A stretch of 34,201 bases of DNA from Desulfobacula sp. (lineage in GTDB: Bacteria; Desulfobacterota; Desulfobacteria; Desulfobacterales; Desulfobacteraceae), in contig NZ_JAUWQB010000034.1 of the NCBI RefSeq assembly GCF_030611305.1, positions 1 through 34,201 on the forward strand. The letters are read 5' to 3'. A program made the position numbers and the translations under genes. The notes beneath the pieces are model-generated. The model did no database searches and had not been told where the DNA came from. It was given only the letters and a program-made list of their open reading frames with translations. Within the stretch, counting starts at the first letter, position 1. Every line of letters starts with the position of its first letter. This document shows, piece by piece, positions 7,437-32,257 of the stretch.

Positions 7437-8570
7437 CTACTTGGGTTCATCCGGCAGGATAATTTTAAAACCGGTCTCTTTTCCTTTTATGGACGTCACA
7501 TGAATTGATCCGCCATGCTGGTTGATAATAGAGTTAGAAATATAAAGCCCGAATCCGGTTCCTTTCGTACTTTTTGAAGAAAAAAACAGGTTGAATATTT
7601 TTTCTTTTGTTTGACTGTCCATGCCACAGCCATTGTCTTGGATCAAAATCTCCAATTGATCTTTTTGTCTTGAAATTTCAAATATAATTTCATGATCTTT
7701 CTTTTGGGTATCCGCCAGGCAAGCGTCAATGGCATTATCCAGGATATTGATCAGGGCCGCCAGCATAAATTCTTTATCAAAATACATGGTTTGAGGAAAA
7801 TTAATTTTAGTACATATAAAAACAATTTTTGTTCCTTTTAATTTTAACTCAATTATTTCTTTAATCTGTTCAATAAAGATTTTTGTATCAATAGCGGTCC
7901 TATTCAGTTTTCTTTCCTTGGAATACAATAAAATATCCAAGATCATCTTCTTTATCCGGTCAACTGCCTGCTCAAGCAAGTCAAAGCCTTCTTCAATTGT
8001 TTCATCATCTTTGCTTTTCACCCCGGATCGTGCCACATAAATACCACCGTCAAGACTGGTTAAAAGCCCTTTGATATTGTGTGAAATGGTTCCGATCATC
8101 AGTCCTAAGGATGACAGATGGTCTGCCAGTTTTGATTTTTCAAGAATGAGCAGTTCAAGTTTTTGAGTGTATTCCAAAAGCTTTTGTTGTGCCACGATTT
8201 TTTCAATCGCTTTTTCAATGGCAATTTCAAGAATATCCACATTAACGGGCTTGGTGATAAAATCCATGGCCTCATATTTGAGACTTCGAATGGTCAAATG
8301 CATATCCCCGTGCCCTGTGATCATCAAAACTTCTGTTGCCGGGCTTTCGCGTTTAATCTGTCTTAATAATTCAATACCGTCCATAACCGGCATTTTAATA
8401 TCAGTAATCACAATATCCGGTCTTTTCAATTTGAACAGTTCAAAGGCCTTTTTACCATTTTCAGCAAGAAATACGGTATATCCGATATCTTTTAATGCAA
8501 TCTCAAGAACGTCCCGGATATCTTCTTCATCATCGACAATTAATATGGATATTTGGTCTTTATTAATCAT
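7437..8570 (-). CDS. Receiver-histidine kinase (REC-HisKA-HATPase)
   Basis: A soluble 377-residue signalling protein. The N-terminal receiver domain (about 8-120) has the acidic pair in VDDEE, phospho-acceptor D57 in ITDIKMP, T in MITGHGD and K in ITKPV. A short coiled coil (about 125-155) leads to a kinase core with His164 in TISHNIKGLL, N-box NILDNAIDAC, G1 DNGCGM and G2 GTGFGLYIS. His164 is followed by Asn instead of the usual Glu/Asp, so the H-box is atypical. Receiver-first kinases of this type can pass phosphate in either direction. It is the last signalling gene of the Hdr operon, 6 nt downstream of the membrane kinase, which makes that kinase its likely partner. The start has a GAGGGG site. 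Confidence 0.88.
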   Translation of the reverse strand: MINKDQISILIVDDEEDIRDVLEIALKDIGYTVFLAENGKKAFELFKLKRPDIVITDIKMPVMDGIELLRQIKRESPATEVLMITGHGDMHLTIRSLKYEAMDFITKPVNVDILEIAIEKAIEKIVAQQKLLEYTQKLELLILEKSKLADHLSSLGLMIGTISHNIKGLLTSLDGGIYVARSGVKSKDDETIEEGFDLLEQAVDRIKKMILDILLYSKERKLNRTAIDTKIFIEQIKEIIELKLKGTKIVFICTKINFPQTMYFDKEFMLAALINILDNAIDACLADTQKKDHEIIFEISRQKDQLEILIQDNGCGMDSQTKEKIFNLFFSSKSTKGTGFGLYISNSIINQHGGSIHVTSIKGKETGFKIILPDEPK

Positions 8571-8576
8571 AACCCC

Positions 8577-10886
8577 TCAATATATATGATTTTCATACAC
8601 CAGATCGTCTTCATGCGCATCAAGCACAGGAAAGGATAAAATAAAGACAGCCCCCCCCTGCTCTGATCTTTCTATCTGGACCAAACCTGCGCACTCTTTG
8701 ATAATGCCATAGCTGATAGACAGCCCGAGACCAGTCCCTTTTCCAACCTCCTTGGTGGTAAAAAAAGGTTCGAACAGCTTATCCGCAGCCTCTTTTTGAA
8801 TCCCTGTGCCCGTATCATGTATCTCAATGATGACCCTATCATCGGTCAAGCGTGTGAGAATGGTGATCCTGTCATTATCATCCGGTCTTGTGCCCTCTTT
8901 TTCCCATTTTTCCTCTATGGCATCTTTTGCATTAATGACAAGATTGATAAACACCTGCTCAAGCCTGTCAGGATCGGCCAGTATTTCCGGCAATGCCTCA
9001 TTTTTATCCCAGATAACATCAATGCCATGAATTTTAAGTTGCTGGTTAAACATTTCAAATGTCCTTTGAAGCACATCATTTATACGTATCCGGGCAAGGT
9101 TGACTTCTGACTTCCTTGCAAACTGACGCATATGATGGATGATTTTTTCAGCGCGATCCACATTATTGTCAATCTTTGAAATAAGTTTATTAAAAATCTC
9201 TTTCTCTATTTTTTCATTTTTCCTCATCTTCTTTATACAAAAACTGCTGGATGATTTAATAACTGATAAAGGCTGGTTCAATTCATGGGCAATACCGGTT
9301 GACATTTCACCCAGGGTAGCCATTTTGCTTGCATGCATTAGATGCTGCTCCGTTTCAAGACGTTTGGTAATATCATTAATGGTTACAAGAAGTACTTTTC
9401 TGTCCGAATATTTGGATGGCGACACCCACATATCAACATAGATGAACCGGTTATTTTTAACAAGATGCTTCACCTTGTTAACCTCCTGGCCGGATTTCAT
9501 TTTCTTGATCAGTTCTTTTTTTTCCGCTTCGATAAAAAAGTCGGAAAATAATTTCTTTAATAAATTCCCTTTGTAATAGCCATATACTTCAACCGCTTTG
9601 ATATTGCAGTCACGGATTTCAAATGTTTGAAGATCCACAACAAACACTGGATTGGAAATATTATTAAATATGGCATGGTATTTTTCCTCTGATCGTTGAA
9701 GTTCTTTTTCAAGCCGACGTCTTAGGGTGATATCAATACTCATCTCCATGGCTGCAACGATGTTTCCCTCAGCGTCCTTCACAGGGGATGTGATAAACAT
9801 CCAGTGATTTTTTCCACCGTTCTTACCCGTCCCTTCTGCTTCGCCATAATGGGATTTTCCATCCACAAAGGTTTTTTCAACCGGGCAATCCGTACATTTT
9901 TCTTCCAGTCCCTTATAGGCAAGATAACAATGAGATCCGGGCTTTGGATCAAATCTCTCTTTAAATACCCTGTTCCATGCTTTCAACCTGTACTCTTTGT
10001 CCTGAACTGTAATCATGCAGGGCACAGTTTCAAAGAGAGACTGGTATTCGTTTCTCTGTTTTTTCAGTTCTGCCTGGTCAAGTCCGATCTGGGTGCCCAT
10101 TGTTTTTATGGCTTTGCCAAGAAGCCCGATTTCATAATCCTTTCCAACATCAATCTTCTCATTGTAATGACCTTCTGCAATCCTCCTGGTACCATCAACC
10201 AGTTTGCTAATCGGTTTTTTTACAAATTGTAAACTGAAAAAAAAGATGATCATCGATGTGATCAAAATGGTGAAAAAAGCAAATTTTATCATCCCTCTTT
10301 TAATGTTCAATATCTGACGGTCTGCCTGCTCGAGGGAGACGACCACATCAAGGGTGCCCAGTATCTTTTGATGCTCAGGATGGAAATGGCACTTAGTGGC
10401 ACAGCCGGACTCGTTGCAGATGGGCTGGACAATCCCTAAAAACCTGTTGCCTTTTTCTGATTCAAAAAACCGGGTTCTTTTTTGAATACCGATGCGAGCC
10501 GGCGGCGGGTCCTGCTGATGACAGATGTCACAGGCCACTTCCTTGATATCAACATTTTTATCAATCTCTTCTTTCTGGTTGGTAAATTTTATCTGACCTT
10601 CTTTATTATATATCCTGATATTCTCTATTCCCGGCTGGGTGGCAATATTATTTATTATCTGTGTAATTTCATCCCTTGAGTTCAGCATCATGGCATAATG
10701 GGTGCTAAGCTTGATAGAGCTTGTCAGCCTGTCCGTGCTGGCAATGACATTATTCATGATCTGGGTCTTGATATTATTGATATTAAAATAAGCCCAGGCA
10801 GATATGGAGAGAATAACTGTCAACCCGACAGAAACAATCAGCTTTGAAACAAGGCTGTGTTTTAGATATTTTATAAAATTACTCAT
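8577..10886 (-). CDS. Membrane histidine kinase with periplasmic heme-c motif and two PAS domains
   Basis: 769 residues. A first membrane segment (about 15-35) and a second (about 200-221) enclose a periplasmic sensor region. That region contains CDICH (119-123), a canonical covalent heme-c motif, and a second Cys-rich stretch CNESGCATKCHFHPEH (157-172) with a non-canonical CX3CH. HAMP (about 220-270), two PAS domains (about 280-390 and 400-510) and a kinase core follow, with His534 in GIAHELNQPL, an N-box in NLVINAKDAI, DTGTGI and GKGTGLGLSI. The first PAS carries a Cys cluster (C320, C331, C334). A redox or gas-responsive kinase is the natural reading. Its start overlaps the hdrB stop by ATGA, coupling it to the Hdr genes, and the next gene is a receiver-kinase. 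Heme attachment is inferred from the motif only. Confidence 0.88.
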   Translation of the reverse strand: MSNFIKYLKHSLVSKLIVSVGLTVILSISAWAYFNINNIKTQIMNNVIASTDRLTSSIKLSTHYAMMLNSRDEITQIINNIATQPGIENIRIYNKEGQIKFTNQKEEIDKNVDIKEVACDICHQQDPPPARIGIQKRTRFFESEKGNRFLGIVQPICNESGCATKCHFHPEHQKILGTLDVVVSLEQADRQILNIKRGMIKFAFFTILITSMIIFFFSLQFVKKPISKLVDGTRRIAEGHYNEKIDVGKDYEIGLLGKAIKTMGTQIGLDQAELKKQRNEYQSLFETVPCMITVQDKEYRLKAWNRVFKERFDPKPGSHCYLAYKGLEEKCTDCPVEKTFVDGKSHYGEAEGTGKNGGKNHWMFITSPVKDAEGNIVAAMEMSIDITLRRRLEKELQRSEEKYHAIFNNISNPVFVVDLQTFEIRDCNIKAVEVYGYYKGNLLKKLFSDFFIEAEKKELIKKMKSGQEVNKVKHLVKNNRFIYVDMWVSPSKYSDRKVLLVTINDITKRLETEQHLMHASKMATLGEMSTGIAHELNQPLSVIKSSSSFCIKKMRKNEKIEKEIFNKLISKIDNNVDRAEKIIHHMRQFARKSEVNLARIRINDVLQRTFEMFNQQLKIHGIDVIWDKNEALPEILADPDRLEQVFINLVINAKDAIEEKWEKEGTRPDDNDRITILTRLTDDRVIIEIHDTGTGIQKEAADKLFEPFFTTKEVGKGTGLGLSISYGIIKECAGLVQIERSEQGGAVFILSFPVLDAHEDDLVYENHIY

Positions 10887-11749
10887 ACCCTCGCTTTTAT
10901 CAATCTCCCTGGATTTGACAGATTTAAATCCAGACGGACATCATTTTGGGTCTTTCCCATGGCAAGTCCTAAAAATTGTGGAAGGAACAGAACCGGAATT
11001 TCAAGATCAATCCCTTCTTTATGAGATATCTTTTTCTGGCTGCTTTCAAGGTTCATCTGGCACATGGGACATACGGTCAAAATGGCATCAGCCCCTTTTG
11101 CAGATTTTAAAATTCTTCCCACAAGCACCATGCCTGCTTCCGGTTTTGTGCTGGTATTGGATGCGCCACAACACTGAGCGCCCATATCCCATTCAAATGA
11201 CTGTGCCCCTGTTGCTCGTATCAATTCATCCATGGAATGAGGATCTTCGGGATCATCAAAAATGGTAAAAGGTCTTAAACACTGGCATCCATAATACGGT
11301 GCAACGGTAAGACCCGACAATTTATTTTGAGAAGTTTCTTTAATTGTCTCGATATCGATATCATTTGACAGAACATCCAGAAGGTGCCTTACTATCACAT
11401 CCCCTTTTAAAACAAGATCTTCCTGGGCAAGTACACTATTAATTTTTCTCAGCAGATCCTTGTCATTTTTAATAGCCTCTTCGACCTTTTTAAGATTCAG
11501 GTAACAGGCACTGCAGGGCACAAGGATCTGGTTTGAACTGTTCATTTTTTCGGCAAGGGCAAGATTTCTTGCCGGGAGCACATAGGACAACAGATGACTC
11601 TGGGACTCGGCTGCGGTGGCACCACAGCAGGTCCAATCCTCAATCTCCGAAAGTTGAACATCCACAGCTTCCATTAATACTTTTGTGGAAATATCATATT
11701 CAGCAGAGGTTCCTTCCAAAGAACAGCCCGGATAATATAAGTATTTCAT
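10883..11749 (-). CDS. hdrB: Heterodisulfide reductase subunit B-like protein
   Basis: 288 residues with both complete CCG domains that bind the noncubane [4Fe-4S] clusters in HdrB. The first has C9, C41-C42 and C79/C82 (C-X31-CC-X36-CXXC). The second has C155, C193-C194 and C227/C230. HdrB is where disulfide substrates are reduced in methanogens. In sulfate reducers, which lack CoM-CoB, the physiological substrate is unsettled. The start has GGAGG 6 nt upstream, inside the end of hdrC, and the stop overlaps the following kinase by ATGA. With HdrC and the two HdrA-like proteins upstream it would make a soluble electron-transfer complex. All ligands are present, so the protein is likely functional. 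Confidence 0.93.
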   Translation of the reverse strand: MKYLYYPGCSLEGTSAEYDISTKVLMEAVDVQLSEIEDWTCCGATAAESQSHLLSYVLPARNLALAEKMNSSNQILVPCSACYLNLKKVEEAIKNDKDLLRKINSVLAQEDLVLKGDVIVRHLLDVLSNDIDIETIKETSQNKLSGLTVAPYYGCQCLRPFTIFDDPEDPHSMDELIRATGAQSFEWDMGAQCCGASNTSTKPEAGMVLVGRILKSAKGADAILTVCPMCQMNLESSQKKISHKEGIDLEIPVLFLPQFLGLAMGKTQNDVRLDLNLSNPGRLIKARV

Positions 11750-11750
11750 C

Positions 11751-12296
11751 TCATTCCTCCAGTTCCGCCACTTTTTTAAACAATGCAGTTAACTTACCTT
11801 TGCGGCCAAAGGAAAATTCAGGCCGAATCTTTCCTTTGGCAAGCAGCTTAATTCCTAAGGATGCATAGGCAAATGGAATCACAGGATTTTTCATTGAAAT
11901 AAAATAATTGGTCATAAATTCCATCTCCTTGACCCTGCCATGGTTTTTAACACTGTTTAAAAAGGCTTCGTAAAAAAGCGAAGATCGTCGAAACTGTTTT
12001 AATCTCAATTTTGATGCCACCTGCTTTAACTGACTCATGGCATTTGTTAATTCAAGCCCCCTTGGACATCTTAAGGTGCAGTAATAGCAGGATGAACACA
12101 TAATAAAAGATTTACTTGAAAAAAGTTGGTCTACATGATCTGTCATCAGCAACCGCCACATATGTCTGGGAGTAATGTCCATAAATTCAATATTCGGGCA
12201 GGAAGCCGTACAGGTACCGCATTGAATGCATGTCTGTATCATCGTCTTGATCGTCTCGGTCTGTTCCAAATAACCTTTATTATTTGCCTGGCCCAT
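11751..12296 (-). CDS. hdrC: Heterodisulfide reductase subunit C-like ferredoxin
   Basis: A 181-residue protein with two [4Fe-4S] motifs, CIQCGTCTASCP (C23, C26, C29, C33) and CSSCYYCTLRCP (C67, C70, C73, C77), and a helical C-terminal part, as in HdrC. It would pass electrons between HdrA and HdrB. I prefer the ATG at 12296 to the adjacent GTG at 12299; a GGGGAAAGG purine block lies just upstream. It is separated from hdrB by 1 nt, so the two are surely co-translated. I see no transmembrane segment, so this is the soluble HdrABC type, not the membrane HdrDE type. Confidence 0.92.
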   Translation of the reverse strand: MGQANNKGYLEQTETIKTMIQTCIQCGTCTASCPNIEFMDITPRHMWRLLMTDHVDQLFSSKSFIMCSSCYYCTLRCPRGLELTNAMSQLKQVASKLRLKQFRRSSLFYEAFLNSVKNHGRVKEMEFMTNYFISMKNPVIPFAYASLGIKLLAKGKIRPEFSFGRKGKLTALFKKVAELEE

Positions 12297-12344
12297 CACC
12301 TTTCCCCTTTATATTTTTTCATTCTCAACAATCATTTGAAAATA

Positions 12345-15300
12345 TCACGACACTGCCATATCAATTGAATCAAGCATCAGCCGCATGTCAAGCCCCTCTA
12401 AAACAGCAGAACCGCTTGGACAGACAGCTGCACACACTCCACATCCCTGACAGGCCGCAGGATCGATCACAATTCTTTCCTCTATACTGTCAACAAAACG
12501 GGCACCATAGGGACAGGTATCAACACACATTTCACACATACTGCAAGTCGCTGTACGAGTATCTGCAACAATTTTTCCAGAGACCAGCCGTTCATGGGAA
12601 AGAATTCGTATGGCCCTGATTGCTGCAGCCTCGGCTGTTACCACAGCCTCTTCAATGGTACATGGTTTTAATGATAATCCACAGGAAAAGACCCTGTAGT
12701 TCATACTGTCAACAGGTCGAAATTTTGAATCTGCTTCCTTGAAAAAATGGAATGTATCCAAGGATGCTCCATATTGATCAGCCAGTGCCTTTGGAAGATC
12801 CGGCAGAATTCCAGTGGCATGAATAACGTAATCAGCCTCGATCTCAACCGGCATATCAAGTAAAAGATCACGGGTTTTGACAAGCACCTTGTCTTCCTGC
12901 ATTTGGGTCAAAGGTTTGTCTGCAGAATCGTATTGGAAAAAAATCACTCCGCTATTTTTTGCATTGGTATAATATTGTTCATAAAACCCATAACTCATCA
13001 TGTCCCTGTAAAGAATATAAACCTGGATATCAGGATTCTTTTCTTTAAGAAAAAGTGCATTTTTCAAGGCCCTGATGCAACAGACCCTGGAACAGTAGTT
13101 ACGTTTTTCATCTCTTGTTCCTGAGCACTGGATCATCACAACGGTTTCCAATTTTTCCGGATCAATCTTTTGGTCTTGAACACCCATCTCAAATTCTTTC
13201 TGGGTCAGCTCTTTTTGCTGCGGATCATCCGCATCCACCTCAAGTGGTGCCTGGCCTCCCCCTGTGGCCAGGATAGTTACCCCGTGAAGAATTGTTTCGC
13301 CCGGATCCTTTGGTTCATCCTCTTTTTTTAAAAGAGTGGAAAATTCTCCCGGATGCTGTCCTGTGCTTTCAGTCTTTGTCTTTTTGTGGATCGTAACCTG
13401 GTTATGGAATTCAAGTTCTTTTACTTTTTCATCCAGATACGCCTGAATATCCAGGCCGTCAACGGTTTTGTCCATCCACAACAGATTGCCGCCAATGGTA
13501 TCATCTTTTTCAACCAGATCTACATGATATCCACAGTCTGCAATTGACAGGGCTGCCGTGATGCCGGCAATACCGCCTCCAATGACCAAGGCATTCTGAT
13601 TTGATTCAAGTCGTTCTTTAGGCACGGGATTTTTAAACCTGGCCTTTGATATCAGGATTTTCAACTCTCGTTCAATCCGCTGGGTCATTTCGGGGATTTG
13701 TGAATCCGGGTATTGCTTTAAAATTGAAATAATGTCCAGAGTTTCCACAAGGCTTGAATGAAGCCCTGATTCCTTTCCAAGTTCCTTAATCCTCTGTTTG
13801 TAAATACAGGGCAGACATGCTCCCAGAACAAGCCGGTTGGGATTTGTTTTTTGAATCATGTCAACTAAGGTTTTCTTTCCTTCATCCGTACAGAGTTTAT
13901 CCATTATTTCAACGGATTTATTTTCCGGAATTCTGTTCAAATCCAATTTCAAACTCTCAACATCAAGCGTTTGAGTAAGATCGCTGCCGCAAGAGCACAA
14001 CACCGTTAAAATTTTTGGATTTTCCCTTGCCAACACCGCCAAACCATTCAGATCAGTTTCATCCATATCTATTGCATGTGCATCAATTGTCTTCTTACCC
14101 GCCTCATGCATGATTTTACAGGCCCCAAGGGCTGCTGCTGAAGCACAGGTAACAGATTCGCTGATATCTTTGAGCCCTGAAAGAGATCCGCCGGATAAAA
14201 TCCCTTTCCTTGAAGTTTTGATCATTGAAAAAGGAGTAGTTTCAATAAATCCCCATGGGTTGATGATCATATCATTTTTTAATGCAAGCTCTGTCATTTG
14301 TTTGGCCGGTCTCTGACCCGTCGCCAGCACCACCAAATCAAAATCATCCTCATGGATATTTCCCTGCATATCCACATACCTTGCCAAAAGACTGCCGTCA
14401 TCTTTTTTAAGATCTTCATCAAGTGAATGAATCCTTGCCCTGACAAATCTGATCTGATTTTCTTCCCGGGCTTTTAGTCTATAGTCATCAAAAGATTTGC
14501 CAATAGTTCTCATATCCATATAAAAAAGCGTGGTCTCAAGGTCCTGGCCAAACTTTTCTTTGGCAAGAATAGCCTCTTTTATGGAAATCATGCAGCAGAC
14601 ACTGGAACAAAATCCGGCACCTGTTTGGACATCGCGAGATCCCACGCATTGAAACCAGGCAATTTTTCTTACAGGTTTACCGGTTTTCGGATGAATTAAT
14701 TTTCCTTTACCAGGCCCTGTACCACTGATGAGTCGTTCAAACTCCATTCCGGTGACAACCCCTGGCAGAACACCGTAACCATAAGGATTCTTACCTAAGT
14801 TCGGTTTGAAAAACTCTGTACCCCCGGCGAGAATCAGGGCATCCACCTGTTCAACCCTTGCTTCGGCAATTTCAAACTCATGATAGACCTTCAGCGTCAT
14901 GGAAATCAGCACATCCGGATCAAAGGGTTTGGTCAAATAATCAAGTGCGCCCTGCTTCATGGCTTCCACAGCCGAGTCAACGGCTGCATAAGCCGTCATC
15001 ATGATGACACAAAGATCATCATTTTTTTCTTTTGCCTTTGCCAGCAACTCGACACCATCCATACCCGGCATCTTGATATCTGTCAGCATCATATTAAACG
15101 GCCTGTCATCCATCAATTCAAGGGCTTTTTGCCCTGAATCCGCTGCTGTTACGGAAAATCCCTCTTCCTTGAGCCATTCTTTCATGGAATCCCGGACAAT
15201 TTTTTCATCGTCCACCACCAGGATCTTAAATTTTTCCCTGTTCTGATCTATGAATTTAATGGCCCCTGTGGGGCATATTTTTTCACACTCTCCGCACCGT

Positions 15301-15797
15301 GTACATGCGGTATAATCAATGGTGTAAGTATTGGAAAAAGACTGGGGGCTTGGAAGATAAACTGCCTTTCTTTTTGTCAGCCCTTCATTGAAAGGATCAT
15401 CAACAAAAACAGGACAAATACGTTCACATTCACCGCACCCCGTGCATAAAGACGGATCAATCAACGAGGGATTTTGTTTAAGGGTTACTTTTAAATCACC
15501 CGGTTCCCCCTCAACAGACATTAATTGTGTTGACAAAAGAATCTCAATATTTTTATGGAAAAGCCCTTTTCTCAGGCAATGCTGGGAGGACTGATCCCTG
15601 TCAAACATGGGCAGCATCCTGCAATACCCGCATTTGGATGTGGGAAACTGGTTATCAAGCTGACATAAAAGACCACCGATGTGATCTGATTGATCGATGA
15701 GCAGAACCTTGTATCCTGTTTCAGCCAGATCCAGTGCAGATCTGATACCGCTTAACCCGGCCCCGGCAACTAATGTTTTACCAATTGCCATATTCAT
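12345..15797 (-). CDS. Tandem HdrA-like flavoprotein with an embedded response-regulator receiver domain
   Basis: 1150 residues, more than 1.5 times a normal HdrA, built of two HdrA-like modules. Module 1 has FAD motif AGAGLSGIRSA (11-21) and ferredoxin motifs CTGCGECERICP (118-129) and CTRCGECEKICP (165-176). A full receiver domain follows (about 191-305) with D196/D197, phospho-acceptor D240 in LTDIKMPG, T268 and K290. The HdrA sequence then resumes at DALILAGGTEF, with CVGSRD and CSSVCC. Module 2 starts with GGGIAGITAA (740-749) and has CSGTRD, CSRVCC, and C-terminal clusters CSMCEMCVDTCP and CQGCGVCAAVCP. The receiver sits exactly between the second ferredoxin motif and the ATG-type flavin strand of module 1, and keeps all catalytic residues. 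I infer phospho-control of electron flow, or output from it. GGAGG lies 4 nt before the ATG. hdrC and hdrB follow. Confidence 0.93.
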   Translation of the reverse strand: MNMAIGKTLVAGAGLSGIRSALDLAETGYKVLLIDQSDHIGGLLCQLDNQFPTSKCGYCRMLPMFDRDQSSQHCLRKGLFHKNIEILLSTQLMSVEGEPGDLKVTLKQNPSLIDPSLCTGCGECERICPVFVDDPFNEGLTKRKAVYLPSPQSFSNTYTIDYTACTRCGECEKICPTGAIKFIDQNREKFKILVVDDEKIVRDSMKEWLKEEGFSVTAADSGQKALELMDDRPFNMMLTDIKMPGMDGVELLAKAKEKNDDLCVIMMTAYAAVDSAVEAMKQGALDYLTKPFDPDVLISMTLKVYHEFEIAEARVEQVDALILAGGTEFFKPNLGKNPYGYGVLPGVVTGMEFERLISGTGPGKGKLIHPKTGKPVRKIAWFQCVGSRDVQTGAGFCSSVCCMISIKEAILAKEKFGQDLETTLFYMDMRTIGKSFDDYRLKAREENQIRFVRARIHSLDEDLKKDDGSLLARYVDMQGNIHEDDFDLVVLATGQRPAKQMTELALKNDMIINPWGFIETTPFSMIKTSRKGILSGGSLSGLKDISESVTCASAAALGACKIMHEAGKKTIDAHAIDMDETDLNGLAVLARENPKILTVLCSCGSDLTQTLDVESLKLDLNRIPENKSVEIMDKLCTDEGKKTLVDMIQKTNPNRLVLGACLPCIYKQRIKELGKESGLHSSLVETLDIISILKQYPDSQIPEMTQRIERELKILISKARFKNPVPKERLESNQNALVIGGGIAGITAALSIADCGYHVDLVEKDDTIGGNLLWMDKTVDGLDIQAYLDEKVKELEFHNQVTIHKKTKTESTGQHPGEFSTLLKKEDEPKDPGETILHGVTILATGGGQAPLEVDADDPQQKELTQKEFEMGVQDQKIDPEKLETVVMIQCSGTRDEKRNYCSRVCCIRALKNALFLKEKNPDIQVYILYRDMMSYGFYEQYYTNAKNSGVIFFQYDSADKPLTQMQEDKVLVKTRDLLLDMPVEIEADYVIHATGILPDLPKALADQYGASLDTFHFFKEADSKFRPVDSMNYRVFSCGLSLKPCTIEEAVVTAEAAAIRAIRILSHERLVSGKIVADTRTATCSMCEMCVDTCPYGARFVDSIEERIVIDPAACQGCGVCAAVCPSGSAVLEGLDMRLMLDSIDMAVS

Positions 15798-15813: not shown

Positions 15814-16947
15814 TCATTTTATACCGACGATATCCTCAAACTCTCTCTCGTTGAAAACTGATAAGGGCGGGGGGTCGTTTTCATCTATCCCGGGCGAATA
15901 TTCAAATGCTACCTGGGTAGTTTGAGCCACGCTCTTAAAGACTTCAAAAACATTTATATCGCTGGGACATGCATTTGAACACTGACCGCACCCCACACAG
16001 GCATGACTGATATGGGCCAGCCGGGTGAGATGATAAAAAACCGTATCCGTGGGCAGCTTGACAAGCCCATTTTTCTCTGCCCACTGATGATATTGAACCG
16101 GCTGATGATAAAACACGTCTGTATTAAAGACACACTCTTTGCAATAGCAGACCGGGCACATGTTCCGGCAGTTATAGCAATTGATGCACCGGTCAAAGAA
16201 AGCATTGAGTTTTGAAATACTGTCCGTCTTCTCTGTGATGTCTTCAATCATTGCCTCATTTGCTTTTGAATTCACCTCTTTTATCTGTGTCACCACCTCT
16301 TCCCGCTTTTCCGGCATGGATGTTTGCTGCATATTCAGGCTTTCCAGAATCTTTTGGCCTGCCTCACTGCCGGATTCCACCATCATACCGTTTGAAAGAT
16401 CAACACCGTGCAGGAGTATATTCATATCCGTGTTGACGGGAAAAGGATTCTCACAGGTATTACAGGCACTGCTGAAATTAAATCCATTAAGGGTTTCATT
16501 CTTTTCTGAAAACACCTTTTGGATATAGGCATCATCTTCCAATGGATCTTTTTCCATATACGCGGTATAATCAGACAATGTCAGTGCTTTGGGGCAATCA
16601 ATCCCTATAAGAATCAATTCCTGCCTGGATCCCTGTTTGAGCTTTATCAGTTCAATAAATGCCCGTATTTCACACGACCGTAACAATACAGCAGTTTTTC
16701 TTCCCGATTCCTTATATGAAAGCCGTGATACCATCCTCCCCGAATTAAGTGGAAAGGCCGGGCTTAACGGCACTGCATTCTCTATTTGAGCCGGATCCGT
16801 CACCAGGGACGGCATTATGGAAGATGAATCTTTTAATCGAACCGGCAAAAAAAGGGCATCAATCTCCTGCATCTCCAGAAGCCGTTTAAAAAACTGGTGC
16901 AAGCCTTTGGTCAGACTGTTATCCTCTTGCTCTATTTTTATCATCAT
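15814..16947 (-). CDS. FrhB/FdhB-like iron-sulfur flavoprotein (F420-hydrogenase/dehydrogenase beta family)
   Basis: 377 residues. The N-terminal half resembles the FrhB/FdhB family, including the LRSCEIRAFIEL stretch (about 89-100) and the ACNTCENPF segment. A linker leads to C-terminal clusters CINCYNCRNMCPVCYCKEC (254-272) and CVGCGQCSNACP (317-328). Members of this family pass electrons between a flavin-bound cofactor and Fe-S clusters. In sulfate reducers they accompany Hdr or formate dehydrogenase genes, and the true electron donor is often unknown. Here the protein lies between MvhD and the receiver-HdrA, with gaps of 19 and 16 nt. It is a candidate entry point for electrons because no hydrogenase or formate dehydrogenase large subunit is encoded nearby. 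The start is ATG at 16947 (an ATG follows directly). Confidence 0.82.
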   Translation of the reverse strand: MMIKIEQEDNSLTKGLHQFFKRLLEMQEIDALFLPVRLKDSSSIMPSLVTDPAQIENAVPLSPAFPLNSGRMVSRLSYKESGRKTAVLLRSCEIRAFIELIKLKQGSRQELILIGIDCPKALTLSDYTAYMEKDPLEDDAYIQKVFSEKNETLNGFNFSSACNTCENPFPVNTDMNILLHGVDLSNGMMVESGSEAGQKILESLNMQQTSMPEKREEVVTQIKEVNSKANEAMIEDITEKTDSISKLNAFFDRCINCYNCRNMCPVCYCKECVFNTDVFYHQPVQYHQWAEKNGLVKLPTDTVFYHLTRLAHISHACVGCGQCSNACPSDINVFEVFKSVAQTTQVAFEYSPGIDENDPPPLSVFNEREFEDIVGIK

Positions 16948-16966: not shown

Positions 16967-17389
16967 TCATATGGCCTTATTCAATCTTGTCTGAGAAGGC
17001 CCCATTTCAATTATTTGATCATTCAGCCGAGTCATGATCTCGGCAAATTCAATGCCGTCGCTGGCACCGATCCAGGTCAACCGCAATCGATCCTTTTCAA
17101 TTCCAAACCGGGGAAGGATTTCCTTTAACAGCTTAATTCTGCGCCTTGCCTTATAGTTTCCATTAATATAGTGGCAGTCTCCCGGATGGCATCCACTGAT
17201 TAAAACACCATCCGCTCCTTCAAGAAATGCCTTGATCACATATTGGGGATCCACCATCCCCGTGCACATGACCCGGATCAGGCGGATATTCGTGGGATAG
17301 GACAATCTTGACGTCCCTGCAAGATCCGCAGCCGTATATGTGCACCAATTGCAAACAAAAGCCACGATGACCGGTTCAAACGTTCCCAT
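16967..17389 (-). CDS. mvhD: MvhD-like [2Fe-2S] subunit (hydrogenase iron-sulfur subunit)
   Basis: 140 residues of the MvhD/FlpD family, which links an electron donor to HdrA. Conserved cysteines occur in FVCNWCTY (C13, C16), VMCTGMVDP (C42) and GCHPGDCHY (C67, C72), and the IGASDGIEFA block near the end is typical. The start at 17389 is set by AGGAG 7 nt upstream; a longer in-frame extension overlapping hdrA has no support. The gene begins 10 nt after the GltD-containing HdrA gene, consistent with a stable HdrA-MvhD contact as in known bifurcating complexes. The catalytic MvhA and MvhG subunits are missing from the window. Confidence 0.9.
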   Translation of the reverse strand: MGTFEPVIVAFVCNWCTYTAADLAGTSRLSYPTNIRLIRVMCTGMVDPQYVIKAFLEGADGVLISGCHPGDCHYINGNYKARRRIKLLKEILPRFGIEKDRLRLTWIGASDGIEFAEIMTRLNDQIIEMGPSQTRLNKAI

Positions 17390-17399
17390 ATTATTCTCC

Positions 17400-20300
17400 T
17401 TAAAATATTCCGCTGATTTCAGCAAAAATCTGTTTCTTGGTAAAATGTCTGCTTTGTGCAGCACCGCTAGGGCAAATCCCGGAACAGCTCCCACATCCTT
17501 TGCAAATGGCTTCATTGACGACAGACACCTGCCTTCTTTCATCAAATTCGATGGCTGTATACGGACAAAGAGTGATACAGGTTTTACAACCAATACAGAC
17601 ATCAGGGTCTATCCATGAAATGGTGGGAGCGATATCAACTCTGCCTTTTGTAGCAAGTGCCAAGGCTTTTACTGCGGCTCCCGAAGCCTGTGACACTGTA
17701 TCCGGGATATCCATGGGCTTCTGGCAGCACCCGCAAAGAAACACACCTTCGGTGGCCGTATTCAAGGGTCCAAGTTTTGGATGCTCTTCAAGAAAAAATC
17801 CATCTGCCCCCTGGTTGACACCAAACACCCTTCCCACATCTCCGGCATCTTCTCTTGCCTGAATGGCTGTACAGAGAATCACCATGTCCACGGGTACCCG
17901 AACCAGTTGCCCCAAAAGAGTATCTTCTGCAATGGCAATCAGCTTGCCTTGTTCAGAGGGGTCCTGTGCCCTGTCTGTGATCTGGGCCACTTTTCCCCGG
18001 ATAAAAATCGTTCCCTCTTCCTGGCACCGTTGATAAAACTCTTCATACCCTTCACCAAAGCACCGCATATCAATATAAAAATCATAAACTTTTGTGTCAT
18101 GTCCCACTTTTTCCTTGATAAGATGCGTGTATTTCAAGGCATACATGCAGCAGACCCTTGAGCAGTATTCGTGATAATTTACATCCCTGGACCCGATACA
18201 ATGGACAATGGCCACACTTTCAGGTTCTCTTGTAAATTCATTATTTGTGTTCCGCATTAAAATTTTACCGCCGGTGGGACCTGTGGCATTGCTTAAGCGC
18301 TCAAATTCCAGAGCAGAGAACACATTGGCAAACCTGCCAAACCCAAATTGTTTTAAGGGTGAAGGCTCTAAAGTGTCATACCCCGTTGCAAGAATAATGC
18401 TGCCTGAATCTATCTGTATGGTCTCTTCTTTCATAAAATGATCAATGGCCTTTGCCTCACATACATTGATACATTCCATGCATTCACAACAGGTCGCACA
18501 ATTCAAACACCTCTGGGCTTCCTTTACGGCCTGCTCTTCTGTAAGAGTTGCTTCAACTTCTTCAAAGGAGTAAACCCTTTTTTCAGGATCGACATATTGG
18601 ACACTGGCCCTTTCTTCAACCAATGTGTTTAAGGGAATATCTGCATAATCTTCACCATTTACGCCCTGATTTATCTCATTATCATGGTCATCCTGATCCG
18701 TTTCGACCTTGTTTATAAAATTGTCAATTCCAATGGCTGCTTTTCTTCCCTGGGCAATGGCTTCGATGACAGTAGCGGGTCCTGTTACCATATCTCCACC
18801 GGCAAACACATTATCAAGGGATGTTTGCAGGGTGCTCGAATGGACCTTTATCCGATTATATTTTGTGATCTCAAGCCCGGGCATTGAATCCGCCCAGGAC
18901 AAATCTGTTTTCTGACCAATGGCCGGAATAAGGGTGTCACACTCAATGATAAACTCAGACCCCGGGATATTCACCGGTCGCCGTCGCCCGGACTCGTCCA
19001 TTTCGCCCAGTTCATTTTTAATGCACTCCAACCCAACTACCCTGCCGTCCCGGCTGATAATTTTAACGGGTGCCGTCAGGGTAAGAAGGTCTATATTCTC
19101 CTCAAGTGCCCCTAAAATTTCTTCCTCATAGGCCGGCATTTCATCCCTTGTCCGCCGATAAACGATGGATATTTCACAGTCTTTGATTCTTTTTGCACAC
19201 CTTGCCGCATCTATGGCAACATTACCGCCGCCAACGATCATCACCTTTTTACCGCAGTCTGTCTTTTGCCCCAGGTTTACATCCCGTAAAAACGAAATAG
19301 CGTCAATAACACCCTTAGTTGAGTCTTCGCCTTCCAGCCCAAGTGAGAGAGATTCATGGGCACCGGAACTTAAAAAAACGGCACAAAATCCATCCTTTGT
19401 CAGGCTTTCAAATGTGATATCAGATCCAAAAGCGGTGTCGGTCATAAGATCAATTCCGTGGGCCAGGATATAATTAATTTCGCCATCAAGGATATCCGCA
19501 GGCAACCGGAAGTCCGGTATCCCGGTTTTCAGCATACCGCCGGGAACAGACAGTTTCTCAAAAACCGTAACCTGGTATCCTTTGAGACGCAGAAAATAAG
19601 CGGCTGTCAGTCCGGCAGGTCCTGCTCCGATCACAGCAATCTTTTCTTTAAGGTCAATTATCTCGGGGATATCTTTCGCTTCAAGATTTGCCCTGTCTGC
19701 GGCAAATCGTTTCAGCTCTTTGATGGCAATGGGTTTATCAACAAGTTTTCGTCGGCACTCGGCCTCGCACGGATGAGGACAGACCCTTCCCAAAACACCC
19801 GGGAACGGGGCTTTTTCCATAATCAATTGAGCTGCCTGATCATACTTTTTCTGACTTATCAGTTGAATATATCCCTGTACATTGATCCCGGCAGGACAGG
19901 TTAATCGACAGGGGGCGATATCTTTTTTCTCAATATTAAAGGTAATGGGGATTGCCTGGGGAAACGCCCTGCCAATAGCCTTTCTTGAAGCCATGCCCAG
20001 ATCCCATGGGTTGGGGATGGAAACCGGACAAACCGTTTCGCATTCCCCGCAACCGGTGCAAAGATCTTCATTGATATAGCGTGATTTTTTCCTGACATCC
20101 AATGTGAAGTTGCCGATAAACCCTGAAACATTGGTAACCTCACTAAAGCTGAGCAGCTCAATATTCGGATCTTGTCCGACTTCCACCATTTTGGGAGTAC
20201 CAATACAGGCTGCACAGTCAAGGGTGGGAAAAGTTTTGTCAAATTGAAGCATATGGCCGCCGATTGTGCTGTCTTTTTCAATCAGATATGCCTTATGACC

Positions 20301-20879
20301 TGAGCTGCCAATATCAATGGCCGCCTGCATACCGGCAATGCCGCCGCCAATAATCACAACATCCGGATTGACATTAGATGTTTTTGTTTCAAGATGATGA
20401 TGGAACTTCACGCGTTGAATGGCAGCCGTCACCAGGCGCTTTGCTTTTTGAGTGGCAAGGTCTCTATCTTTGGTGACCCAGGATACCTGTTCTCTCACCG
20501 AAGACATCTGAAAATAGTAAGGATTGAGCCCTGCCCGCCTACAGGTTTCCATAAATGTTTTTCCGTGAAGTCTTGGGGAACAAGACGCCACCACTACACG
20601 GTTTAGTCCCAGTTCCCGGATATCTTTTTCAATCATGGCCTGGCCGGGTTCCGAACACATAAATTTATAATCCCTTGATATCTCAATATCTTCCAGGGTT
20701 TTAACATAGTCCCTGACAGCTGCGACATCCACCTTGCTTGCAATATTCAACCCGCAGTGGCAAACATAAAACCCAATCCTGCAGGGTTGAGATCTCAAAC
20801 GGACAATCTTTCCGGATTCCAGTTTTCCAGGTCCCAAGTTTTCAGGCTCCAACTTTTCAGGTCCCAAGTTTTCAGACAT
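17400..20879 (-). CDS. hdrA: HdrA-like flavoprotein with an inserted GltD/NfnB-type NAD(P)H module
   Basis: 1159 residues. After a repetitive N-terminus (4-24) come the HdrA opening RIGFYVCHCG (34-43), FAD motif GGGIAGMQAA (178-187) and ferredoxin CTGCGECETVCP (274-285). Inserted next is a glutamate-synthase-small-subunit-like module (about 322-725): CRLTCPAGINVQGY and CPHPCEAECRR cluster ligands, FAD motif GAGPAGLTAA, NAD(P) motif GGGNVAIDAAR and VFAGGD. HdrA resumes with CLNCATCCECMECINVC, CIGSRD, CSRVCC, and C-terminal CIGCKTCITLCP and CKGCGSCSGICP. The insertion gives a second flavin and a nicotinamide site, so NAD(P)H is a likely donor or acceptor in a bifurcating reaction; this is inference from the fold family. 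The start ATG at 20879 follows GGAGG by 5 nt. MvhD starts 10 nt downstream. Confidence 0.93.
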   Translation of the reverse strand: MSENLGPEKLEPENLGPGKLESGKIVRLRSQPCRIGFYVCHCGLNIASKVDVAAVRDYVKTLEDIEISRDYKFMCSEPGQAMIEKDIRELGLNRVVVASCSPRLHGKTFMETCRRAGLNPYYFQMSSVREQVSWVTKDRDLATQKAKRLVTAAIQRVKFHHHLETKTSNVNPDVVIIGGGIAGMQAAIDIGSSGHKAYLIEKDSTIGGHMLQFDKTFPTLDCAACIGTPKMVEVGQDPNIELLSFSEVTNVSGFIGNFTLDVRKKSRYINEDLCTGCGECETVCPVSIPNPWDLGMASRKAIGRAFPQAIPITFNIEKKDIAPCRLTCPAGINVQGYIQLISQKKYDQAAQLIMEKAPFPGVLGRVCPHPCEAECRRKLVDKPIAIKELKRFAADRANLEAKDIPEIIDLKEKIAVIGAGPAGLTAAYFLRLKGYQVTVFEKLSVPGGMLKTGIPDFRLPADILDGEINYILAHGIDLMTDTAFGSDITFESLTKDGFCAVFLSSGAHESLSLGLEGEDSTKGVIDAISFLRDVNLGQKTDCGKKVMIVGGGNVAIDAARCAKRIKDCEISIVYRRTRDEMPAYEEEILGALEENIDLLTLTAPVKIISRDGRVVGLECIKNELGEMDESGRRRPVNIPGSEFIIECDTLIPAIGQKTDLSWADSMPGLEITKYNRIKVHSSTLQTSLDNVFAGGDMVTGPATVIEAIAQGRKAAIGIDNFINKVETDQDDHDNEINQGVNGEDYADIPLNTLVEERASVQYVDPEKRVYSFEEVEATLTEEQAVKEAQRCLNCATCCECMECINVCEAKAIDHFMKEETIQIDSGSIILATGYDTLEPSPLKQFGFGRFANVFSALEFERLSNATGPTGGKILMRNTNNEFTREPESVAIVHCIGSRDVNYHEYCSRVCCMYALKYTHLIKEKVGHDTKVYDFYIDMRCFGEGYEEFYQRCQEEGTIFIRGKVAQITDRAQDPSEQGKLIAIAEDTLLGQLVRVPVDMVILCTAIQAREDAGDVGRVFGVNQGADGFFLEEHPKLGPLNTATEGVFLCGCCQKPMDIPDTVSQASGAAVKALALATKGRVDIAPTISWIDPDVCIGCKTCITLCPYTAIEFDERRQVSVVNEAICKGCGSCSGICPSGAAQSRHFTKKQIFAEISGIF
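20816..20876 (-). repeat. 15-bp in-frame tandem repeat at the 5' end of hdrA
   Basis: About four copies of a 15-nt unit close to TTTTCAGGTCCCAAG (plus-strand reading) occupy the first codons after the start and encode a pentapeptide pattern ENLGP / EKLEP / ENLGP / GKLES. The 30-nt pair 20821-20850 and 20851-20880 is nearly identical. The unit is a multiple of three, so copy-number changes would keep the frame and only alter the length of the N-terminal tail. Confidence 0.75.
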
Positions 20880-20924: not shown

Positions 20925-22127
20925 TTAAAACTCCTTTTTCTCCGGGGGAAGTTTAATGATGAATTCAGAACCAAAATCCAAACTACTTTCCACAACAATG
21001 GTCCCTTTATGTTTTTCAACAATCCCATAGGCTGATGACAGTCCCAGTCCTACCCCGTACCCTTCATTTTTTGTTGTAAAAAAAGGCTCAAAAATAAAAT
21101 TTAAGTCCTCTTTTGAAATGCCCTTTCCATTGTCTTTTATAGAAATAGAAACAAGTTTTTCTTCCGGGTTAAAGCTTGTCTTGATCTCCAGGTCCCCGCC
21201 ATTTTCCATGGCATCAATGGCATTAAAAATCAGGTTAATAATACATTGTTCAAGCTGATTGAAATCTCCAAAAACACGGGGAACATCAGGATTGCATCTG
21301 ACTTTTAAGACAATATTGCTCAACTCAAGCTTATGGTTGCACAACAACAGGCTGTGTTGAATCAGATCGGTGACATCAATGCTTTTTTGTTCCAGGTTTG
21401 TTTTCCTTGAAAATTTCAACAGGCCGGACACAAGATCAGAACATCTCTGGGTCTCAGATTCTATGATTTCCAGGTAGGAATTGAACTTATTGAACCGATC
21501 CTGTCTCTGGTCCGGTGTCAGTTCCGATTTCAGATTATTGCCTTTTCCACTAATACGGATCATGAGCCTGATGTAGTTCAGAATTCCGGACAATGGGTTG
21601 TTGATTTCATGAACCATGCTTGCAGCAAGCCGGCCCAAAGATACCATTTTTTCCCGGTGAAGCAGTTTCGCCTGATTCGACACTTCCTGCTCCATGGTTC
21701 TAAGATCCCTTTCAAGAAGGGTGGTGTAATCAGATAATTGTTTTTTATCAACATACCGCTGCCTGGCCCGTTTTAATGCCATGTGCAGAGCGGCATCATC
21801 AATGGGTTTAGAAATAAAATCTGATGCATCATATTGCAAGGCTTTGACAGCCTTTTTAATATCACCAAACCCTGTGGTAACAATGACTTCTATTTCAGGT
21901 TTTATCTTTTTTATTTTTTCAAGAACTTCAAGGCCGTTCATACCCGGCATTTTAATATCAGTGATGATAATATGGGGTTCTTCTCTTGTGGCAAGCATGA
22001 TGCCTGTATGCCCATCCGGAGCACAGATGACTGAATATCCGGCATCTTTCAAGGTGATAGACATGATGTCCCGAATATCTTCGTCATCATCTATCAGAAG
22101 TATTTTCCAGTTTACGGGCAGGGCCAT
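20925..22127 (-). CDS. Receiver-histidine kinase heading the Hdr operon
   Basis: 400 residues. The receiver domain (about 7-120) has acidic residues in LIDDDED, D57 in ITDIKMPG, a T pair in VTTGFGD and K in ISKPID. A linker helix precedes the kinase core with His174 in SMVHEINNPLSGIL, N-box NLIFNAIDAM, DNGKGI and GVGLGLSSAYGI. The architecture is the same as the kinase at the operon end, but the H-box here is standard. The start is ATG at 22127, with AGAGGAG 5 nt upstream. A sigma-54 promoter lies 33 nt upstream of the start. The receiver-HdrA in the same operon is a possible phosphotransfer target. The following HdrA gene starts after a 45-nt gap. Confidence 0.9.
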   Translation of the reverse strand: MALPVNWKILLIDDDEDIRDIMSITLKDAGYSVICAPDGHTGIMLATREEPHIIITDIKMPGMNGLEVLEKIKKIKPEIEVIVTTGFGDIKKAVKALQYDASDFISKPIDDAALHMALKRARQRYVDKKQLSDYTTLLERDLRTMEQEVSNQAKLLHREKMVSLGRLAASMVHEINNPLSGILNYIRLMIRISGKGNNLKSELTPDQRQDRFNKFNSYLEIIESETQRCSDLVSGLLKFSRKTNLEQKSIDVTDLIQHSLLLCNHKLELSNIVLKVRCNPDVPRVFGDFNQLEQCIINLIFNAIDAMENGGDLEIKTSFNPEEKLVSISIKDNGKGISKEDLNFIFEPFFTTKNEGYGVGLGLSSAYGIVEKHKGTIVVESSLDFGSEFIIKLPPEKKEF

Positions 22128-22159
22128 AAAAACTCCTCTCTGTGTTGTTTGACTTAAGA

Positions 22160-22174
22160 GCAAACAACATGCCA
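22160..22174 (-). promoter_or_regulatory. Sigma-54 (-24/-12) promoter of the Hdr operon
   Basis: Read on the minus strand: TGGCAT-N5-TTGC, with the invariant GG and GC correctly spaced. It lies 33 nt upstream of the ATG of the first operon gene. This means the 15-kb Hdr/kinase operon needs an ATP-driven activator. The likely activator site is 22272-22285. Confidence 0.75.
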
Positions 22175-22314: not shown

Positions 22315-22662
22315 TCAAAAGCCCTCTTCACTGCACCCCGGCATTAAAAAGGTCGGGACAAGAGGATTGCCTTTGGCATATAATTCAAGAATCTCGTTAA
22401 CATTACCGCCGATAAAGGGGATTAACTGAATGGTCCTTGCCTCAATCAAAGTTGAATAGGTTTGAGAAATGGCGCCGCAGATAAGAACCTCAATGCCCAG
22501 AAGACTTAGTTCCTCTGCAAAGCGAGCCTCTAATTCCGGGTCAAAGGATTTATAGGATATATTCTTTATTTTTTCATTTTTAATGTCTGCGATTAAAAGT
22601 GTGTGTGCAGAATCAAAAACAGGGGAAATTCTCTCATCCCAGACAGTGAGTGCAATTTTCAT
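22315..22662 (-). CDS. NifX/NifB-C-terminal family small protein (dinitrogenase iron-molybdenum cofactor fold)
   Basis: 115 residues of the family defined by NifX, NafY and the C-terminus of NifB (PF02579). It starts MKIALTVWDERISPVFD, with the typical ISPVFD in place of the ISxxFGRA of its neighbour, and continues with GIEVLICGAIS. These proteins bind metal clusters or precursors; in Desulfovibrio the orange-protein (ORP) group of this family binds a Mo-Cu cluster and lies in a sigma-54 controlled operon. There are no nif genes here, so a nitrogenase role is not supported. It follows the other NifX gene with a 49-nt gap and presumably shares its promoter. GAGG lies about 10 nt before the ATG. 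Confidence 0.85.
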   Translation of the reverse strand: MKIALTVWDERISPVFDSAHTLLIADIKNEKIKNISYKSFDPELEARFAEELSLLGIEVLICGAISQTYSTLIEARTIQLIPFIGGNVNEILELYAKGNPLVPTFLMPGCSEEGF

Positions 22663-22711: not shown

Positions 22712-23203
22712 TCAACCTCCCATACCTCTGCCAGAACCCATACCGCGTCCAGAGCCCTGCCCCCTTCCCTTTCCCCGGCCGGCGCCTCCCATGCATCTTC
22801 CCCGGCCTTGTGATCCATTGTTGCCTTGATCAGTTGTATCTGCCATCCCTGCCTTTTCATTAACAGTCGGATTAACAGAAGGTGTCAATTCACCATTTTT
22901 GAACTTTCCCACAGCATCCTTGATTAATCCTGCCTGTCCTGTGACAACCTGAATTTTGCATTCAGAAAACACATTCATGGCATTGGGACCGCAATTACCG
23001 GTCAAAACAGCCTTAACATCCTTTGAATGAATAAAGTTTGCAGCCTGGATACCCGCGCCGCCTCCCATGGACTTGTATTCATTCTCAAACACCTCAAAAC
23101 TCATGTCGTCTGTCTCAATAATCATAAAATAAGCACATCTGCCAAATCGCGGGTCAATCTGGGAATTCATATCTTTCCCTGTTGAACTTATACCAATTTT
23201 CAT
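22712..23203 (-). CDS. NifX-family protein with Gly/Arg-rich C-terminal tail
   Basis: 163 residues. Residues 1-105 form a NifX-type domain (MKIGISSTGKDMNSQIDPRFGRCAYF; GGGAGIQAANFI; VLTGNCGPNA). After a linker the last 35 residues are a Gly/Arg/Met-rich tail (GRGRCMGGAGRGKGRG and similar). Such tails are common in deltaproteobacterial members of this family, and their purpose is unknown. The start at 23203 (ATG) is preceded by AGGAG; a GTG three codons upstream is less likely. It is the first gene after a sigma-54 promoter and an enhancer dyad, and sits directly downstream of the EBP1 gene. A cluster-binding or cluster-delivery role is inferred from the family. Confidence 0.87.
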   Translation of the reverse strand: MKIGISSTGKDMNSQIDPRFGRCAYFMIIETDDMSFEVFENEYKSMGGGAGIQAANFIHSKDVKAVLTGNCGPNAMNVFSECKIQVVTGQAGLIKDAVGKFKNGELTPSVNPTVNEKAGMADTTDQGNNGSQGRGRCMGGAGRGKGRGQGSGRGMGSGRGMGG

Positions 23204-23291
23204 ATAAAGCACTCCTCTATGTAAGTATAATAAAATCGGAGGTTATTGATTTATATCCCCTTTTTTAATTTGACTACGACGAATCATAACC

Positions 23292-26116: not shown

Positions 26117-26180
26117 TTTATCAAAACAATTTTGATCCAATTATACCCATACGGACAGTATAAATATTAGTAGGATTATA

Positions 26181-26194: not shown

Positions 26195-26232
26195 CTCAGT
26201 TGATGGATAATTTCAATTTTTCAATTTATGTT

Positions 26233-26247
26233 GCAATCCATGTGCCA
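26233..26247 (-). promoter_or_regulatory. Sigma-54 promoter of the CDF-EBP1 operon
   Basis: Minus strand reads TGGCAC-ATGGA-TTGC followed by A, a full consensus match. It lies between the MFS stop and the CDF start. I found no match to either enhancer motif of this window within about 150 nt upstream, so its activator is not identified. Confidence 0.75.
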
Positions 26248-32185: not shown

Positions 32186-32242
32186 ATTCAAATCCCTTAT
32201 TTGAATTCTATTTTAACAAATAATGTCAAGTCAATACAGATA

Positions 32243-32257
32243 GCAATGAGTGTGCCA
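32243..32257 (-). promoter_or_regulatory. Sigma-54 promoter of the thioredoxin-ferredoxin-cytochrome operon
   Basis: Minus strand reads TGGCACACTCATTGC, the full TGGCAC-N5-TTGC. It is base-for-base identical over 15 nt to the promoter at 33964-33978, including the N5 spacer, which normally varies. It lies 57 nt upstream of the ATG. Confidence 0.85.

Follow-up and report, generated by a model that had tools for sequence, protein, structure and literature searches.

A receiver domain inside a flavoprotein

What does a complete response-regulator receiver (REC) domain, a phosphorylation switch that ordinarily acts on genes, do inside a heterodisulfide reductase-like flavoprotein? The question is raised by a 34,201-nucleotide stretch of DNA from Desulfobacula sp. 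(contig NZ_JAUWQB010000034.1; hereafter the window), in which a minus-strand gene with an ATG start encodes a tandem HdrA with a receiver in its interior, here called HdrA-REC (Table 1). We report that the receiver in HdrA, first noticed in an initial annotation of the sequence, is confirmed and widespread in the class. There is strong circumstantial evidence as to its function, and we lean towards the view that HdrA-REC is the response regulator of the adjoining kinases, with D240 being phosphorylated and an Hdr complex being switched. To our knowledge, how cells set the electron split in bifurcating enzymes is largely open; a working receiver would let a sensor of the periplasmic electron pool influence electron flow in the cytoplasm rapidly, with no need for protein synthesis.

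Domain organization of HdrA-REC

The initial annotation had placed a complete receiver, with D196/D197, D240, T268 and K290, at residues 191-305 or thereabouts, between the second ferredoxin motif and a strand of the flavin domain, followed by a second HdrA-like module, and each of these claims was borne out. Pfam predicts a single Response_reg domain at residues 192-300 (profile positions 1-109 of 111; E 1.3e-31; 109.5 bits, well beyond chance, with the cut-off at 30.2) along with flavin adenine dinucleotide (FAD)/NAD(P) domains and 4Fe-4S motifs, and all five residues are present. When the protein is aligned to solved HdrA chains, residues 17-186 correspond to 155-313 and residues 309-504 to 315-504 of the 5odc chain, and the receiver lies at the break. 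By these alignments module 1 (residues ~5-565) represents HdrA from the FAD domain onward, while module 2 (~594-1150) holds the HdrA N-terminal domain, a second FAD domain lacking the ferredoxin insert and a C-terminal ferredoxin.

The structure of the whole chain was modelled from 12 sequences (mean predicted local distance difference test, pLDDT, 70.3; predicted template modelling score, pTM, 0.67) and that of residues 1-565 from 38 sequences (pLDDT 81.2, pTM 0.73). In the latter model the HdrA part of module 1 matches 8rvu_a (Z 41.5, 418 aligned residues, root mean square deviation 2.5) and the receiver, which has the five-fold alternating receiver fold, matches Spo0F (6ifh; Z 23.0, 119 aligned, deviation 0.9). 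In blocks of ten residues over 191-300 the receiver pLDDT is 79-96, and residues 48-74 are largely below 50. Since the HdrA and receiver folds are both complete in the model, the receiver is a true insertion that separates the inserted ferredoxin domain from the FAD domain where the latter resumes. Structure prediction, suggested in the initial annotation as a way to see the receiver pack against the FAD/Fe-S module, thus gave two whole folds and an inserted receiver, but not a readable packing.

The insertion junction recurs in the 20 relatives aligned with HdrA-REC of the window, and a chimera or assembly error was ruled out since the same junction occurs in many genomes. There is no sign in base composition of a recent insertion of foreign DNA (receiver 46% G+C versus 43% in the flanks). 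Moreover, the receiver tracks the HdrA core, with a distance correlation of 0.81 over 30 loci.

Conservation of the receiver active site

The alignment used here has 64 rows, i.e. the HdrA-REC of the window (P0001) and 63 open reading frames (ORFs), with some proteins reached twice, and contains 60 distinct receiver strings. D196, D197, D240, T268 and K290 are all kept in 60 of the 64 rows (56 of the 60 distinct strings), and D240 is present in every row. The T268/Y287 pair, which we take to be the receiver switch pair, is invariant in 21 aligned sequences. The four exceptions are one truncated sequence (L060) and three pseudo-receivers (L130, L131 and L132, all of family f99), which have D240, with D197 replaced by P, T268 by A, K290 by H in two of the three and D196 by T in one. 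Degenerate receivers, named in the initial annotation as grounds for abandoning its reading, were thus encountered in this one family and not in general; a receiver that is generally a relic was rejected as a rule, and describes three loci. The f99 loci represent one family outside the class, and their pseudo-receiver HdrA adjoins a universal stress protein (Usp)-type protein without a receiver match.

Relation to known HdrA proteins and receiver fusions

HdrA-REC has an FAD thioredoxin-reductase-like domain with an inserted ferredoxin domain, as expected for HdrA, and two thioredoxin-reductase-like domains in one chain, as in type II (tandem) HdrA (PMC12054007). The eight cysteines of the inserted ferredoxin domain are present (C118, C121, C124, C128, C165, C168, C171 and C175) and each position is a cysteine wherever the row has no gap (57 or 58 of 64 rows). 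Two residues named as bifurcation residues, E356 and K409 in the 5odc numbering (PMC12054007), correspond to E354 and K407, which are kept in all 63 rows with a letter. HdrA of HdrABC-MvhADG (5odc, 8rvu, 7bkb) shares with HdrA-REC the FAD and inserted-ferredoxin module (fold Z 39-41.5), the bifurcation residues and the HdrB, HdrC and FlpD genes alongside, but it has a single HdrA module and no receiver. In type III HdrA, as described in PMC12054007, a foreign domain is likewise inserted by the inserted ferredoxin, though that domain is GltD and not a receiver; that paper argues that the GltD domain may block access to the ferredoxin, a useful parallel. The main text of that paper contains neither "receiver" nor "response regulator". 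The protein scores below the NCBIfam HdrA cut-offs (NF041778, 478.4 versus 1400 bits; NF041891, 496.1 versus 1300; NF040770, 610.2 versus 1100), and we class it as only HdrA-like and not as the HdrA of CoB-CoM heterodisulfide reductase; judged by sequence, it possibly bifurcates electrons.

In regulators that combine a receiver with thioredoxin reductase (TrxR), the receiver is joined to an uninterrupted TrxR domain; in HdrA-REC the receiver interrupts the FAD domain. Oxidoreductase outputs of receivers have precedent since such fusions are reported (PMC5847659; P2CS list, PMC2716373). These Mycobacterium-like regulators resemble HdrA-REC in that their receiver is likewise attached to a flavoprotein from the same broad fold family, but where these sources name them it is only as a combination, with no mention of HdrA, Fe-S, a tandem module or an internal insertion. 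Tandem HdrA, HdrA with an inserted domain and REC-TrxR combinations are hence already known. The literature search turned up no receiver within HdrA: the main text of openly licensed papers gave no description of one, and a term search of a pseudo-receiver paper (PMC12632262) gave no match.

Distribution of HdrA-REC

The initial annotation had proposed a search for other HdrA proteins with an internal receiver and a check of their D240, and such proteins are common. Of the 291 class genomes sampled, 117 gave a match to fragment 100-420 (E up to 1e-45); six of these hold only the Usp-REC-Usp proteins treated below (G124, G209, G212, G073, G148 and G289), which leaves 111 with the fusion, a count of fragment matches, some of which are cut by contig ends. 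The HdrA-REC matches fall under more than 30 family labels, and the loci scanned encode 56 distinct intact and three degenerate HdrA-REC proteins of more than 800 codons. Of 395 genomes of the phylum, 15 give matches (E up to 1e-60), including the three with degenerate receivers; in two other phyla 0 of 198 and 0 of 199 genomes matched, a negative that carries weight only beside a genome known to match.

A contig scan with receiver-internal patterns gave, among the matches listed, 12 of 79 loci (L051-L062) with the fusion or a contig-edge piece of it. These 12 fusion records are Desulfobacteraceae, Desulfobacterales or Deltaproteobacteria; again among the matches listed, L063 has a Usp-REC-Usp gene together with an HdrA end, and none of the six HdrA-like ORFs scoring above 300 bits in L064-L129 has a receiver match.

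One contig (C1 of genome G169) encodes HdrL, FlpD, FdhB, REC-HdrA, HdrC and HdrB, and its receiver has the D, D, D, T and K residues. This gene content fits locus VIII of Desulfobacterium autotrophicum HRM2, where hdrL, fdhB, hdrA4 and hdrB/hdrC genes are described together (PMC2702500), and HdrA4 of that strain is very probably a member of the family; "receiver" has no match in the main text of that paper (supplement and figures outside the scope). Control through the receiver is accordingly directly testable, with a member very probably present in a cultured strain.

Usp-REC-Usp proteins and the origin of the receiver

The nearest relative of the HdrA receiver is that of the Usp-REC-Usp proteins (L044:11695-13017, L045:10935-12446, L052:14872-16203, and further examples in L186-L195). 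Here too a receiver of the same clade is inserted between the two halves of a protein that does not bind DNA, the difference being that the flanks are universal stress proteins. In a tree of 73 rows the receivers of both kinds group together as a clade (100/100, bootstrap not settled) that excludes four NtrC-type receivers from homologous loci, and the Usp receivers fall in two groups among those of HdrA (bootstrap again not settled); in the approximately unbiased test a single clade was rejected neither for Usp (p 0.297) nor for HdrA (p 0.291). Usp-REC-Usp-type fragments match in 15 of the 291 genomes, nine of which have the fusion, and 13 of the 15 were fetched and checked. The Usp-REC-Usp gene adjoins hdrB of the HdrA-REC operon in L044, L045, L052 and L194 (the last two apparently the same contig), which would suit a single input feeding two outputs, and no Hdr gene was matched near it in L186-L188. 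In the genome of the window no Usp-REC-Usp was found, and its Usp-Usp ORFs (304 and 307 amino acids) have no receiver match.

Kinases, heme motif and their linkage to the receiver

Three kinases in the operon were named in the initial annotation, and Pfam finds them as two REC-kinases and one membrane kinase. In the membrane kinase two hydrophobic stretches (near residues 12 and 200) bracket a sensor that contains CDICH. All 38 distinct kinase homologues with this sensor have a CxxCH motif at the corresponding position (one of them, L174, is from a REC-less operon), a count that leaves out eight matches: two cut by the locus end (L055 and L160) and six without the sensor or the motif. The six are L133, L157, L158 and L165 together with L187 and L188, which lie beside Usp-REC-Usp genes, and a heme sensor in every operon was rejected on this basis. 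As judged from the motif and the hydrophobic stretches, the sensor (residues ~33-199) is a putative heme-binding domain on the periplasmic side.

Kinase genes are far commoner near REC-bearing than near REC-less loci. Among loci with at least 5 kb of flank on both sides, 40 of 42 intact HdrA-REC loci have kinase genes within 7 kb (mean 2.07 kinases), compared with four of 12 tandem HdrAs without REC (mean 0.5); when shorter flanks are allowed the counts become 49 of 56 and five of 16, where the REC-less set consists of 11 relatives (including the longer HdrL-like L178 and L179, 1485 amino acids) and five paralogues of the window's own genome. All three degenerate loci also have kinases nearby, and the two exceptions among the 42 intact loci (L138 and L151) have a CxxCH sensor kinase elsewhere in the genome. 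The sensor kinase is present in 95 of the 111 fusion genomes versus 50 of the 180 without the fusion (odds ratio 15, relatedness uncorrected). Our data therefore uphold the initial annotation in that the receiver is intact, conserved and more often near kinase genes than its REC-less relatives are, though not for the degenerate receivers of the f99 loci.

The best NCBIfam matches of the receiver are FixJ, AtoC and NtrC, and those of the kinases include AtoS and ZraS; AtoS-AtoC and ZraS-ZraR are cognate pairs. In the REC-less relatives L173, L174 and L176 the operon instead encodes a receiver-less Usp-type protein and, separately, a single stand-alone receiver (by Pfam for L174).

Proposed mechanism and alternatives

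The reading favoured here, that HdrA-REC is the response regulator of the adjoining kinases, rests on how the domains are arranged, on an active site that is intact and conserved, on the gene content of the operon, on the heme motif of the sensor kinase and on the frequent presence of kinases beside REC-bearing loci. By Pfam both of the operon's remaining receivers are parts of kinases, which leaves the HdrA receiver as the only output, and since no other receiver is free of a kinase a two-component system with an Hdr flavoprotein as its output is the simplest reading. The membrane kinase, with a periplasmic c-type heme sensor and aided by the two REC-kinases, would phosphorylate D240; the receiver, which is tethered at both ends to the FAD domain and lies next to the inserted ferredoxin domain, would then change in a phosphorylation-dependent manner on the face in contact with the FAD domain or the ferredoxin insert; and the result would be altered electron flow, or altered docking of partners, in an HdrABC-FlpD-HdrL complex, with transcription unchanged. 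More tentatively, with the balance of our judgement slightly against it, HdrA-REC may stand for a widespread class of Hdr complexes that a two-component system controls directly and not through transcription. In most of these a periplasmic c-heme kinase would report outside redox, phosphorylate the aspartate and open or shut electron flow, while some would share the receiver cassette with Usp and so have two outputs.

Several points weigh against response regulation of the Hdr complex. The complex, the phosphotransfer, the kinase responsible and the gating effect with its sign are what we infer, and domain packing is not readable from models with a pTM of 0.67-0.73 and low confidence at residues 48-74. 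The f99 proteins keep the insertion without the full catalytic set. In L039-L043 (genus g4, ORFs of 962-985 amino acids) the ferredoxin insert is missing and the receiver directly follows the first FAD part; three other g4 genomes match across the insert. Because this lineage lost the insert and kept the receiver, a valve on the ferredoxin domain is not the whole story. The membrane-type kinases of four HdrA-REC operons (L133, L157, L158 and L165) match only from residue 199 or later of the window's membrane kinase and have no CxxCH, so a heme input, while common, is not general, and the input appears to differ between lineages. Of the fusion genomes, 16 of 111 have no kinase match at the threshold, and operon linkage across related species is not independent, the counts being made without correction for phylogeny. 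Finally, the excess co-variation is small: the partial correlation of the receiver with the membrane-kinase core is 0.195 given HdrB and falls to 0.087 (p 0.08) when the HdrA core is also controlled; for the downstream REC-kinase it is 0.138 (p 0.01).

Signalling might also run in reverse, such that the receiver serves for docking or as a phosphate sink, and the Hdr complex, by its redox state or occupancy, acts through it on the kinases and hence on transcription of other genes. N-terminal receivers in two of the three operon kinases, as in relays, a sigma-54 type promoter on the operon and NtrC-type regulators near several homologous operons all point that way; the sigma-54 activator near the operon (23456-24832), however, is by eye a PAS-AAA-HTH protein without a receiver, which leaves no linked DNA-binding receiver output, and we regard this alternative as unlikely. 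It is less probable again that the receiver is a structural module or relic, fixed as a spacer, a dimerisation domain or a partner-binding domain for which phosphorylation is irrelevant. The pseudo-receivers, which keep the insertion without the full catalytic set, speak for this, but the near-complete conservation of the five residues, the kinases concentrated near REC-bearing loci, and the catalytic set that the ferredoxin-less lineage still has all argue otherwise.

NtrC-type receivers typically dimerise or dock on phosphorylation. By analogy, phosphorylation could control localisation or assembly and not internal gating, by driving receiver dimerisation or the docking of HdrA-REC with HdrL/FlpD or the membrane kinase. 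A receiver tethered at both ends could act on partner docking, and in L039-L043, where the ferredoxin insert has been lost, direct gating would lack its simplest target; against this, the placement of the domains is unreadable from the model, and we give it about the lowest probability of the readings considered.

Operon organization and neighbouring genes

The gene order from the promoter is REC-kinase, HdrL with inserted GltD, FlpD, Fe-S protein, HdrA-REC, HdrC, HdrB, membrane kinase and REC-kinase, with short gaps or overlaps between the genes (Table 1).

Table 1. Features of the HdrA-REC operon in the window
Feature	Coordinates	Strand	Basis
Second REC-histidine kinase	7437..8570	-	Pfam
Membrane sensor kinase: sensor, HAMP, PAS, PAS, HisKA, HATPase	8577..10886	-	Pfam
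CxxCH c-heme motif of sensor kinase (residues 119-123)	10518..10532	-	Sequence
HdrB-like, two CCG domains	10883..11749	-	Pfam, NCBIfam
HdrC-like	11751..12299	-	Pfam, NCBIfam
Tandem HdrA with internal receiver, 1150 amino acids	12345..15797	-	Pfam, alignment, structure model
Module 2: HdrA N-terminal, second FAD, C-terminal ferredoxin (residues 594-1150)	12348..14018	-	Pfam, alignment
Module 1, returning FAD domain with E354 and K407 (residues 313-565)	14103..14861	-	Alignment, fold
Receiver domain (residues 192-300)	14898..15224	-	Pfam, fold match to 6ifh
D240 codon, predicted phospho-acceptor	15078..15080	-	D240 in 64/64 rows
Inserted ferredoxin domain, two 4Fe-4S motifs (residues 115-181)	15255..15455	-	Pfam, alignment
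Module 1, FAD domain first part (residues ~5-116)	15450..15785	-	Alignment, fold match
Fe-S protein, labelled FdhB as in the HRM2 paper; AsrA/ShyB matches weak and below cut-off	15814..16947	-	
FlpD/MvhD	16967..17389	-	Pfam
HdrL: HdrA with inserted GltD/NAD(P)H-binding region	17400..20879	-	Pfam, NCBIfam
REC-histidine kinase	20925..22127	-	Pfam; ATG at 22127, longest ORF from 22163
Sigma-54 type promoter TGGCAT-N5-TTGCT, precedes operon	22159..22174	-	Pattern match

The sigma-54 pattern occurs three times in the window versus 0.15 expected. It lies just before the first kinase in L039, L040, L042, L043 and L139, and is found anywhere in only 23 of 195 loci. The further two matches in the window are both on the minus strand, at 26232-26247 before a CDF-like transporter gene (24842-26140) and at 32242-32257 before a thioredoxin-like gene (31670-32191), with both genes named by eye. 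The C-terminal part of the transporter resembles a NifX/NifB-type domain, and small proteins of similar look are encoded nearby (22315-22662 and 22712-23212), again as judged by eye. At the other end of the window, a tyrosine recombinase fragment and an IS91-like transposase (975-3006, by eye) lie beside recC.

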